Shown piece after piece: positions 18,944-22,384 of a stretch of DNA of 64,000 nucleotides. The DNA is taken from the NCBI RefSeq assembly GCF_037081715.1, contig NZ_JAZDDH010000001.1, positions 1,364,001 through 1,428,000 of the forward strand, read 5' to 3'. The first letter of the stretch is position 1; every line of letters starts with the position of its first letter. This DNA comes from Halalkalicoccus sp. CG83 (GTDB lineage: Archaea > Halobacteriota > Halobacteria > Halobacteriales > Halalkalicoccaceae). The position numbers and the translations under genes were made by a program. Under the pieces are notes generated by a model, which made no database searches, was not told the origin of the DNA, and saw only the letters and a program-made list of their open reading frames with translations.

Positions 18944-19930
18944 ATGGTGACGTTTCTCTCCGGGGGGACCGGAACGCCGAAGCTCCTCTCGGGGGCCGAC
19001 GCCGTCTTCGAGCCGGCGGAGACGACCGTCGTCGGCAACACCGGCGACGACGTCGAACTCGGCGGGCTGCTGGTCTGTCCGGACCTCGACACCGTGCTGT
19101 TCGAACGCGGCGGGGTCCTCGACCGGGAGACGTGGTGGGGGATCGACGGCGACACCCACGAGACCAACGAGTACCTCCTCGAACTGGCGAGTGCTGCCGG
19201 TCTCGAGACGGGGCCGCGCTACCTTCCCGACGCCTGTCAGACCGACGGACGGGAGATCGCCCGCTGGCGGCGGTTCTCGGGGATCGCGGAGTTCATGACG
19301 ATCGGCGACCGCGACCGCGCGGTCCACCTCACCCGGACCGGGTTGCTCGACGAGGGGCGCTCGCTCACCGAGGTCACCCGAACGCTCGCCGATGCGTTCG
19401 GGCTCGCCATCGACCTCGTGCCGATGAGCGACGACCCGCTCGCAACGATGATCCACACCGATCGGGGGGAGATGCACTTCCAGGAGTTCTGGGTCGCCCA
19501 TCGCGGCGAGCCCGCGATCGAACGCGTCGAGTTCCGCGGCGAAGCGCGGGCGACGGAGGCCGTACTGACCGCTCTCGAAGACCCGGTCGTGATCGGCCCC
19601 TCGAACCCGATCACGAGCGTCGGGCCGATCCGTGCGGTCAGGGGGGTCGAGGAACGACTCGCCCGGGTGCCGGTGGTCGTCGTCTCGCCGTTCGTCGAGG
19701 ACCGCGTCTTCTCGGGCCCCGCGGGCGATCTGATGGCCGCTTCGGGCTACGAGCCCTCGACCGCCGGCGTCGCCGAATGCTATCCGTTCGCCGACGCGTT
19801 CGTGCTCGACGACGGCGACGGGACGACGCTCGATCGCCCCGTCGTCCGGACCGACACCGCGATGGACTCGCGAGAGGACGCCGAACGCGTCGCCCGTGCG
19901 GTCGAGGAGGCGCTGGGGGGGATCGACTGA
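18944..19930 (+). CDS. cofD: 2-phospho-L-lactate transferase CofD (coenzyme F420 biosynthesis)
   Basis: A 328-residue enzyme that joins 2-phospholactate (or phosphoenolpyruvate), activated with GTP, to the deazaflavin Fo to give F420-0. N-terminal [15 protein letters not shown] and the NTGDD motif (about residues 32-36) are the CofD nucleotide-binding signatures; [12 protein letters not shown] occurs later as in the family. The open frame runs far upstream (18182), but the ATG at 18944 matches family N-termini and lies about 27 nt from a CTTAAG box A. It leads a four-gene coupled operon. Confidence 0.92.
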
Positions 19931-20673
19931 TGTTCGAGCCACGACTCGCGCTCGCGAGCCTGAGCGGCCGATCGGACGCCGCGTGGGCGAGCGCGGCGAG
20001 CGAGCACGCCGGCGCGGCCTTTCTCGGCGGAATCGCCCTCGACGAGCCGTCTCGGGAGGCCGCCCGCGCGCTCGTCGCCCGCGACCGCGACGAGTTCCTG
20101 CCGGCGGACCCGATCGCGTTCGTCGACGACCAGCTCTCGGCGCTGTCGGAGACGCCGATCAGAGCGGGATTTAACCTTCGGTCGAGTTCGCCCGAACCGA
20201 TCGCGACGGCTGCGGCGGTCTGTCGCGCGCACGGCGCGATCTGCGAGATCAACGCCCACTGTCGCCAGGAAGAGCTGTGTGCGGTCGGCTGCGGGGAGAC
20301 GCTCCTTCGGGAGAGCGACCGGCTCCGCGAGTACGTCTGCGCGGCCGACGCCGAGGGCGCGACGGTGAGCGTGAAGGTCCGTGCGGAGGTCGACGGGGTG
20401 AATCTCGCCGAGACCGCCCGACTGGTCGAGCGGGCGGGTGCGGACGCGATCCACGTCGACGCGATGGATTCGGAGGAGGTGATCCGAACGGTGACGGACG
20501 CCGCCGATCTGTTCGTGATCGCGAACAACGAGGTTCGCGACGCCGCGAGCGTCCGGGAGTACCTCGCGTACGGCGCGGACGCGGTGAGCGTCGGCCGACC
20601 CAGCGACGACCCCCGGGTGCTCGCACGGATACGGGAGGTCCTCGACCGGCTCTCCCGGGAGGCCCACGCGTGA
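19930..20673 (+). CDS. tRNA-dihydrouridine-synthase-like protein (MJ0144 type)
   Basis: A 247-residue TIM-barrel protein of the DUS-like group found next to cofD in haloarchaea. EINAHC (about residues 98-103) corresponds to the INxxC active-site strand of DUS enzymes, and IHVDAMDS, VIANNEVRDAASVREYL and GADAVSVGRPS match the flavin phosphate-binding end of the barrel. It is shorter than true tRNA DUS and lacks the C-terminal tRNA-binding domain, so tRNA reduction is doubtful. The start overlaps the cofD stop (TGATG), and it is coupled to the next gene by GTGA. Confidence 0.75.
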   Translation: MFEPRLALASLSGRSDAAWASAASEHAGAAFLGGIALDEPSREAARALVARDRDEFLPADPIAFVDDQLSALSETPIRAGFNLRSSSPEPIATAAAVCRAHGAICEINAHCRQEELCAVGCGETLLRESDRLREYVCAADAEGATVSVKVRAEVDGVNLAETARLVERAGADAIHVDAMDSEEVIRTVTDAADLFVIANNEVRDAASVREYLAYGADAVSVGRPSDDPRVLARIREVLDRLSREAHA

Positions 20674-21539
20674 ACGCGAACACGAGCGCGCGGACACGAA
20701 CGGCGGCACAGAACGCCGAACTCGCGCTGCTGCTCGAGGTCGCGGGGACGCCCAAGCCGGGCAACGTCGACCGACGGCGCGATCTGTCCGACCTGCGCTT
20801 CGAGCAGTTCCTCGCGGGCGCCGTCGGTGCGGGCGAGGGGTTGCGGGACGCGGAAGCCGGCGATCCCATCGGCGAGGCGTTCGAACGGGCGGTCGGGGGG
20901 ATGGCCGCCGGCCACGGTCAGAACACCCAGTTCGGCGCGCTTCTCCTGCTCGTGCCGCTCGTCCGCGCCGCGATCGAAGACGGGGGGACGCTCTCGCCCG
21001 AGGGCGTACGACGGGTCGTCGAGGCGACTACCGTCGAGGACGCCGCCGCGTTCTACCGGGCGTTCGAGTACTGCGAGGTGTTCGTCGACGACCCGCCCGA
21101 GGACGCCGCCGACCTCGACGTTCGGCGCGGGAGCGAAGCCGTCCCCGCCCTCGAACGCCGCGGGCTGACGCTCCTCGACGTGATGCGCCTGAGCGAGGCC
21201 GAGGACGACGTCGCCCGCGAGTGGACGGGCGGCTTCGAGCGCTCGTTCCGGGCCGCGGAACTGATCACTGAGTCCGAGGGGCCGCTCTCGGATCGCGGCG
21301 CACGGGCGTTTCTCGACCTGCTCGCGGAGCGACCCGACACGCTCGTCGCGAAGAAACACGGGGAGAGGGTCGCCGAGGGGGCGATGGAGCGGGCGAAACG
21401 GACACGCGACGCGGGCGATCCAGACGCGATCGAGGCGCTCGCCGAGGCGTTCGTCGAGGAGGGGATCAATCCGGGAACGACCGCCGACATCGTCGCCGCG
21501 GGGCTGTTCGTCGCGCTCGAACGGGGAGTCGAGCCGTGA
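20670..21539 (+). CDS. CitG/MdcB-like triphosphoribosyl-dephospho-CoA synthase family protein
   Basis: A 289-residue protein of the CitG family. The EVAGTPKPGNVDRRRD stretch near residues 24-39 matches the ATP-site motif (TPKPGLVDR) of CitG/MdcB. CitG makes the prosthetic-group precursor of citrate lyase, but no citrate- or malonate-lyase genes are present here. In methanogens this family includes the methanofuran-pathway enzyme MfnF, so another ATP-dependent cofactor step is more likely. The GTG start at 20670 overlaps the previous stop and has a cccggga ribosome-like stretch upstream. Confidence 0.75.
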   Translation: MNANTSARTRTAAQNAELALLLEVAGTPKPGNVDRRRDLSDLRFEQFLAGAVGAGEGLRDAEAGDPIGEAFERAVGGMAAGHGQNTQFGALLLLVPLVRAAIEDGGTLSPEGVRRVVEATTVEDAAAFYRAFEYCEVFVDDPPEDAADLDVRRGSEAVPALERRGLTLLDVMRLSEAEDDVAREWTGGFERSFRAAELITESEGPLSDRGARAFLDLLAERPDTLVAKKHGERVAEGAMERAKRTRDAGDPDAIEALAEAFVEEGINPGTTADIVAAGLFVALERGVEP

Positions 21540-22126
21540 GCGACGGCTGGCCGGTCGAGCTACGCGGCGCCACCGAGTCGGTCGTCGCAACGCTCGGGCC
21601 GAACGACCGGTGGAACCTCGCGGCGCTCGGGCTGTTCGCCGGCGAGCCGGTGACCTCGCGGACGTGGGGAAACACCCGGACGCGGCGGAATCTCCACCGG
21701 CGAGGTGGGGGGTACGTCCAGTTCACCCGGGATCCGATGGAGTTCGTCGAGGCGGCGCTGGGAGTCTACGAGCGCGACGACCCCGTCCTTCCTTCCGCGG
21801 ACGCCTGGGTCCGCGTCGAGGTCGAGCGGGTCGACGCCGGCGAGGACGGCGGCACCCGCTGGGAGGAGTGGGCGCACACGCCGGTCGAGACGGGGATCGA
21901 ACGGCGCGTCGTCCCGACGACCAACCGCGGCTACAACGCCGTCATCGAGGCGACGGTCGCGGCCTCGCGGCTCGGCGTCGCAGCTTACGATACCGCCGAG
22001 CTCGAGGAACGCCTCGTCTACTTCGAGGGCGTGGTCGAGCGCTGTGGCGCCGCACGCGAGCGCGAGGCGATGGCGCGCCTCCGCGAACTGTCGGACTGGG
22101 ACGGGCGGGACGAACGGCCCGACTGA
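21536..22126 (+). CDS. DUF447 family protein (flavin split-barrel type)
   Basis: A 196-residue protein of the DUF447 group, which has a flavin-reductase-like split-barrel fold. Visible family features are WNLAALG near residue 27, SRTWGNTRTRRNL at about 41-53, and a Thr-Asn-Arg-Gly-Tyr-Asn segment near residue 132. DUF447 genes accompany methanofuran/methanopterin cofactor genes in methanogens and methylotrophs; here the gene closes the cofD operon. It starts with GTG overlapping the previous stop (GTGA at 21536-21539). Confidence 0.7.
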   Translation: MSDGWPVELRGATESVVATLGPNDRWNLAALGLFAGEPVTSRTWGNTRTRRNLHRRGGGYVQFTRDPMEFVEAALGVYERDDPVLPSADAWVRVEVERVDAGEDGGTRWEEWAHTPVETGIERRVVPTTNRGYNAVIEATVAASRLGVAAYDTAELEERLVYFEGVVERCGAAREREAMARLRELSDWDGRDERPD

Positions 22127-22192: not shown

Positions 22193-22384
22193 ATGGCGAT
22201 CAAACCGGCCTACGTCAAGAAGACGGGGACGCTCCTCATCGAGCGTTACCCCGAGGCGTTCAACGACGACTTCGATCACAACAAACGAAGCGTCCGCGAA
22301 CTGACCAACATCGAGTCCAAGGGCGTCCGAAACCGGATCGCGGGCTACGTCACCCGGAAACAGGAACAGGCCGCCCAGGCGTAG
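22193..22384 (+). CDS. rps17e: 30S ribosomal protein S17e
   Basis: A 63-residue basic protein starting MAIKPAYVKKTGTLLIERYP, the archaeal S17e N-terminus, with NKRSVRELTNIESKGVRNRI in the middle. It is a structural protein of the small ribosomal subunit. A CCTTTTAGG box A at about 22160-22168 lies 27-30 nt before the ATG. The spacer upstream holds a short run of gaaacg/cgaaac repeats of no clear function. Confidence 0.95.
   Translation: MAIKPAYVKKTGTLLIERYPEAFNDDFDHNKRSVRELTNIESKGVRNRIAGYVTRKQEQAAQA

Follow-up and report, generated by a model that had tools for sequence, protein, structure and literature searches.

We analysed a window of 64,000 nucleotides from the haloarchaeon Halalkalicoccus sp. 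CG83 (contig NZ_JAZDDH010000001.1, positions 1,364,001 to 1,428,000) and focused on a unit of four genes within it: cofD, which belongs to coenzyme F420 synthesis, a Dus-like gene (dus), a CitG-family gene (citG) and a gene for a DUF447 protein. Protein families were assigned by profile search, and open reading frames and junctions were read directly from the sequence. The initial annotation had described the four genes as a coupled operon, and we found the unit to be real and correctly placed, with each of the three proposed overlaps present in the sequence (Table 1). The downstream neighbour rps17e is not coupled to DUF447 and lies outside the unit; it marks the site at which citG and DUF447 are missing from some haloarchaeal genomes, as described below.

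Table 1. Features of the four-gene unit in the window, and two related genes elsewhere in the window genome
Feature	Position	Strand	Description
cofD	18944..19930	+	ATG start, 328 aa; 2-phospho-L-lactate transferase, F420 synthesis; TIGR01819, PF01933
cofD/Dus-like junction	19928..19932	+	TGATG; stop/start coupling, from sequence
Dus-like gene	19930..20673	+	ATG start, 247 aa, TIM-barrel; PF01207, TIGR00736 below cut-off
Dus-like/CitG-family junction	20670..20673	+	GTGA; coupling, from sequence
CitG-family gene	20670..21539	+	GTG start, 289 aa; archaeal / tetrahydromethanopterin (H4MPT)-island type; PF01874
CitG-family/DUF447 junction	21536..21539	+	GTGA; coupling, from sequence
DUF447 gene	21536..22126	+	GTG start, 196 aa; PF04289 and PF20766; flavin mononucleotide (FMN)-binding split-barrel fold (predicted)
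rps17e	22193..22384	+	PF00833; downstream neighbour, outside the unit
mptG	G000:C1:1116516-1117466		beta-ribofuranosylaminobenzene 5'-phosphate (RFAP) synthase family; TIGR00144 150.1 vs 113.5 bits, NF040726 below cut-off
mer	G000:C2:436040-436990		F420-dependent methylene-H4MPT reductase; NF002619 474.2 vs 276 bits, TIGR03555 below cut-off

The order and strand cofD-dus-citG-DUF447 are found in 68 of 80 named haloarchaeal loci, which are the best 80 of 446, and in 56 of these 68 the citG stop overlaps the DUF447 start as GTGA or ATGA. Four of the 80 loci read cofD-dus-rps17e-asd without citG and DUF447, and the other eight show only cofD-dus within the flank. The four-gene arrangement is more than chance. 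Its gene content is ordinary for haloarchaea, with CitG present in 191 of the 194 genomes of a class-wide sample that was searched for CitG and MptG.

Outside the haloarchaea, the unit mostly comes apart. In a phylum set of 119 genomes that includes 22 haloarchaea, Mch occurs in every genome, CofD and the MptG family in 115 each, DUF447 in 114 and CitG in 113. The citG and DUF447 genes lie no more than 520 bases apart in 98 of the 111 genomes that have both, so the pairing persists well beyond close relatives, and we conclude that citG-DUF447 is an ancient unit. Of the 13 genomes that deviate, 12 belong to a single family, f11, and the other is G023. Family f11 (G005, G014, G030 and others), whose genomes we presume may be ANME-1-like (related to anaerobic methanotrophic archaea), also has no Mer profile match in 14 of its 15 genomes and a weak one in G005; most of its genomes keep CitG, DUF447 and MptG. 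The cofD gene is near the pair in haloarchaea and in two other loci (L114 and L127) and within a few kb in L115-L117; in 19 of 24 non-haloarchaeal loci it is absent from the sequence read on either side of the pair, which spans up to 20 kb. We read the haloarchaeal operon as two cofactor modules joined together, not as a single F420-modification pathway.

On the F420 side, CofD is a clear equivalog of TIGR01819 (F420_cofD; 370.7 bits vs a cut-off of 257.45, E 4.5e-111), and its product would make F420-0. The Dus-like protein exceeds the cut-off of PF01207 (46.1 vs 20.4 bits) and falls below the equivalog cut-off of TIGR00736, the MJ0144 family (112.3 vs 218.7 bits). Many methanogens carry, upstream of citG, a 380-aa protein that combines a Dus-like part with methanogenesis marker 9 (for example L112:9304-10446), and a scan of three orthologues in other families of the phylum found TIGR03277, the marker-9 profile, in each of them. 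In contrast, TIGR03277 was not among the profile-scan matches of the 247-aa protein of the window, which otherwise holds the same position upstream of citG-DUF447. The Dus-like gene, too, is old: it is orthologous to the N-terminal portion of the 380-aa protein and descends from the marker-9 protein, minus the marker-9 domain. It is separable from its neighbours in both directions: G017 has cofD-citG-DUF447 without dus, and the genomes that lost citG-DUF447 keep it.

The CitG-family protein is a strong member of PF01874 (225.4 bits vs a gathering score of 27), and it misses all three CitG/MdcB equivalogs by a wide margin: TIGR03125 (24.4 vs 272.3 bits), TIGR03132 (27.5 vs 282.35) and NF002315 (29.5 vs 280). 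The residues K29-P30-G31, N85, G89, D223 and P268-G269..A272-D273 are common to the window protein, E. coli CitG and the bacterial-island proteins introduced below. The window protein thus shares the Pfam family and core residues of the triphosphoribosyl-dephospho-CoA synthases CitG and MdcB, but differs from them in equivalog score and in genomic partners; no citrate lyase or malonate decarboxylase genes stand beside it in the window or in an annotated Natrinema locus, where the neighbours are cofD, dus, DUF447, rps17e and asd. In a tree of 28 CitG sequences (seven haloarchaeal), E. coli CitG sits on a very long branch; because two long branches meet in this tree, we used the haloarchaeal clade alone. 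A structure model of the window protein (from an alignment with 37 of 68 CitG sequences; mean predicted local distance difference test score, pLDDT, 91.5) matches 3h9p of Archaeoglobus fulgidus (Z 26.0, 224 residues, root-mean-square deviation, rmsd, 2.2) and gave no other strong match; matches to ADP-ribosylhydrolases, at Z below 4, were too weak to use.

The DUF447 protein carries two domains, PF04289 (77 vs 24 bits) and PF20766 (61.3 vs 24.8 bits). Its model, built from the window protein and 34 of 68 DUF447 sequences (pLDDT 92 on average), aligns along almost the full chain with archaeal relatives that have bound FMN, namely 2iml (Z 22.4, 179 residues, rmsd 2.2) and 2nr4 (Z 22.3, 177 residues, rmsd 2.1), followed by flavin reductases. 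The predicted fold is an FMN-type split barrel, as in these relatives. A 2026 paper suggested that DUF447 proteins take part in the cannulae of Pyrodictiaceae (PMC13140500), a role at odds with the FMN-bound structures of the family.

The initial annotation had linked the CitG family to a methanofuran-pathway enzyme and DUF447 to methanofuran and methanopterin genes. The methanopterin link was borne out, for both genes. Of 14 well-known genomes used as controls, four have DUF447 and the same four have MptG: Methanocaldococcus jannaschii, Haloferax volcanii, Sulfolobus acidocaldarius and Methanosarcina acetivorans. CitG occurs in those four and in E. coli, where citrate lyase genes adjoin citG. 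MfnB (PF04476) is found in the two methanogens only, with no match in the window genome, H. volcanii or S. acidocaldarius, all of which have CitG and DUF447; therefore, the pair does not track methanofuran, and we rejected methanofuran membership for the window genome. CofD is above its cut-off in three of the four controls that have the pair and has no match in S. acidocaldarius, so the pair does not track F420 either.

Bacterial H4MPT islands hold the same families, with MptG, a CitG-family protein and DUF447 accompanying mch, mtdB, fhc and a protein resembling dihydropteroate synthase (DHPS). On an annotated plasmid of Azospirillum oryzae, citG adjoins mch and DUF447 adjoins a DHPS-like DUF6513 gene, with mptG, mtdB, fae and fhc in the same island and no F420 gene listed. 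By tblastn, Cupriavidus oxalaticus and Paraburkholderia phymatum carry the same genes in their islands. The stretch read from A. lipoferum has DUF447, mptG and mch and ends where citG would lie, and that from A. argentinense has citG with mch and mptG. The Azospirillum orders mch-rimK-citG-fae and folB-like-kinase-flavoprotein-DUF6513-DUF447 parallel mch-orf5-orf7-fae and orf19-orf20-afpA-orf21-orf22, the orders listed for Methylosinus trichosporium (PMC3615186); by position, citG would be orf7 and DUF447 orf22. The two genes are apart in these islands, whereas they are adjacent in most archaea. MptG, CitG-family and DUF447 proteins occur together in methanogens and methylotrophic bacteria. 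The pair's membership of an H4MPT-type module is well supported. A search of viral contigs found nothing.

Elsewhere in the window genome lie two genes that the initial annotation had not noticed, mptG and mer (Table 1). In a tree of 61 sequences from the fetched loci, haloarchaeal MptG falls on the MptG1 side. The haloarchaeal sequences lie outside a remote further clade of the MptG family (15 rows with 100/100 support; L067, L068, L069, L070 and L100-L110, from methanogen families f9, f16, f18 and f21-f24), and we rejected a placement there. This clade lies a few kb from citG-DUF447 in L067-L070 and is the only one matched by G046, G076, G086 and G106, in which it may replace the usual RFAP synthase. 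Nothing useful came from the mptG neighbours in haloarchaea (a KaiC-like ATPase, transcription factor S and two proteins that match no Pfam family). Mer of the window genome passes the methylene-H4MPT reductase profile NF002619, and cofE directly adjoins mer in 17 of 19 haloarchaeal genomes, with CofE identified by NCBIfam in the four that were scanned.

The distribution of these genes ties mer to the pair. When the 22 haloarchaeal genomes were surveyed by the same method, DUF447, CitG and MptG (TIGR00144) were each present in 19, and all three were absent from G008, G049 and G104. Mer scores 276-332 bits in the same 19 genomes, and neither G008 nor G049 gives a match; the 133-bit match in G104 is at the level of a paralogue, which its congeners G025 and G074 carry at 143 bits beside a true Mer of 314 and 310 bits. 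CofD and Mch are present in 22 of 22, and the three losers all keep dus as well as cofD. Our first hypothesis, that the genes make a carrier needed by Mch, was rejected because Mch occurs in all 119 genomes, losers included. Two matching sets of three would arise by chance once in 1540 if the 22 genomes were independent, which they are not: G008 and G049 are congeneric, and G104 is alone among the sampled members of its own genus in having lost the genes. Consequently, we count only two losses as secure and conclude that citG, DUF447, mptG and mer were lost independently at least twice.

Apart from the absent pair, the operon is conserved in the losers. G008 and G049 have dus followed by rps17e with a gap of 40 bases. 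G104 has dus, a gene of about 1.1 kb that we take to be deoxyhypusine synthase, and rps17e, and its locus holds no significant trace of citG or DUF447; congeners have the 1.1-kb gene between DUF447 and rps17e. In G049, the roughly 1.22 Mb covered of a 2.09-Mb contig include dus but gave no match to cofE, mer, mptG, citG or DUF447; cofE may lie in the rest. Across the 194 genomes, CitG is missing from the same three, and MptG from these and G218. In Halarchaeum rubridurum, H. acidiphilum, H. nitratireducens and one metagenome-assembled genome (L187, L227, L232, L234), this locus reads cofD-dus-rps17e without the pair, which is probably a third loss of the pair. The three losers have small genomes of 2.1-2.4 Mb. 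Because all four genes persist in G116 (1.9 Mb), and CitG and MptG in G190 (2.2 Mb), small genome size alone does not explain the losses.

Mer of methanogens uses F420. In haloarchaea, cofD is coupled to citG-DUF447 and cofE adjoins mer, so the logic of the operon may be the supply of one reductase's two cofactors. We therefore favour, with moderate confidence, a reading in which citG and DUF447 act in a pathway to an RFAP-derived, methanopterin-type pterin that stands beside folate, with this pterin and F420 being the two cofactors of Mer. The pair would serve the RFAP branch of pterin synthesis, with mptG acting from elsewhere in the genome. In methanopterin, a ring-opened ribityl chain bears an alpha-linked ribosyl phosphate, and CitG forms an alpha ribosyl linkage from ATP in its known reaction on dephospho-CoA. 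Because these chemistries are parallel, we propose the CitG-family protein as the putative ribosyltransferase of the pathway, which, by analogy, would transfer an alpha-linked ribosyl phosphate to the ribityl 5'-hydroxyl. Because the ribityl chain is ring-opened, we likewise propose that DUF447 would be a reductase using FMN to open the ribofuranosyl ring within the RFAP moiety. The product in haloarchaea would be an RFAP-derived, H4MPT-like pterin coexisting with folate, and Mer would be its main user, reducing its methylene form with F420H2. We infer both its existence in haloarchaea and its use by Mer.

A bolder and more tentative form of this proposal gives haloarchaea a second pterin system beside folate, in which an undescribed RFAP-derived tetrahydropterin would act as the dedicated methyl-branch carrier of F420-dependent Mer, and CitG and DUF447 would carry out two late steps of methanopterin-type synthesis; the folate annotation of Mer would then be wrong. 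Published curation holds that haloarchaea use folate and lack the methanopterin-specific enzymes, and it gives haloarchaeal Mer as an example of mis-annotation (PMC8305020, PMC4500146). The open-licence literature, a scope that leaves out older subscription papers on the bacterial islands, yielded no paper connecting CitG or DUF447 with methanopterin, or haloarchaeal mer with mptG. The identity of the pair and the four-gene co-loss with mer are new.

Besides that curation, several observations weigh against the favoured reading. The DHPS-like protein of H4MPT synthesis, TIGR00284, has no full-length match in the 22 haloarchaea, with matches of at most 26 bits in six and none in the window genome. 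A complete H4MPT pathway in haloarchaea is thus unsupported, and the joining of pterin to RFAP would need another enzyme, for which the folate DHPS is a candidate. Haloarchaeal MptG has diverged, and that of the window genome scores below the RFAP-synthase equivalog NF040726 (170.5 vs 328 bits), as Mer of the same genome does for the equivalog TIGR03555 (316.4 vs 348.7 bits). Mch is kept in the three genomes that lack the genes, and is therefore independent of their product there. The secure independent losses number two, and Mer was surveyed in 22 genomes rather than 194. G218, an assembly of 70 contigs, is the only genome of the 194 with CitG and without an MptG match, which is either an assembly gap or a real exception. 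Finally, the pathway is proposed from genes, and its substrate and product are predicted.

Some of these points would be expected if MptG, CitG and DUF447 were inherited from a methanogenic ancestor and repurposed to make an RFAP- or ribose-derived compound that does not carry one-carbon units, leaving Mer on folate. The missing TIGR00284 and MfnB, the independence of Mch and the literature that places Mer and Mch with folate (PMC8305020 and PMC4500146) all agree with this explanation. Yet it leaves unexplained why mer was lost exactly where mptG, citG and DUF447 were lost, and why cofE is linked to mer and cofD to citG, and we regard it as unlikely, though a genuine contender. We consider it improbable that the co-loss is a coincidence in which small or anaerobic genomes shed dispensable genes that share no haloarchaeal pathway. 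The losers are indeed small and the secure losses only two, but the genes persist in genomes of 1.9 and 2.2 Mb, the same families co-occur across Archaea and in bacterial islands, and cofD, dus and mch, tested in the same way, were retained in the three losers.

The initial annotation had suggested for the three accessory genes a role in building or attaching an F420-dependent or related cofactor not described in Halobacteria. A cofactor undescribed in Halobacteria is a serious possibility, but its F420-dependent or F420-attached form is not supported. Coupling to cofD in haloarchaea, and the adjacency of cofD to citG or dus in L114 and L127, from two other families, speak for F420 modification. 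However, the bacterial islands have citG, DUF447 and mptG with no F420 gene listed, S. acidocaldarius has the pair without CofD, cofD is non-adjacent in most of the methanogen loci read, and three haloarchaea lost the pair while keeping cofD and the Dus-like gene. We reject F420 modification as highly improbable. Least probable of all is an ordinary CitG or MdcB role in making the prosthetic group of citrate lyase or malonate decarboxylase, which Pfam membership and the core residues common with E. coli CitG would allow, but which is contradicted by equivalog scores of 24-29 bits against cut-offs of 272-282, by the lack of lyase genes alongside, by DUF447 as the usual partner and by the very long branch of E. 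coli CitG.

Taken together, almost all haloarchaea keep two methanopterin-type genes beside an F420 gene, and the lineages that lost them also lost Mer. The methanopterin-type pterin reading explains why an F420 gene shares an operon with CitG and DUF447, and the co-loss of mer with three methanopterin-type genes turns a settled folate annotation into an open and testable question. To our knowledge, the late steps of methanopterin synthesis, ribosyl transfer and ring opening, lack assigned enzymes. Haloferax volcanii is genetically tractable and grows without methanogenesis; its mptG is HVO_2628, its mer is HVO_1937, and its citG and DUF447 genes adjoin cofD (HVO_2479). In this organism, these late steps could be approached by simple deletion.

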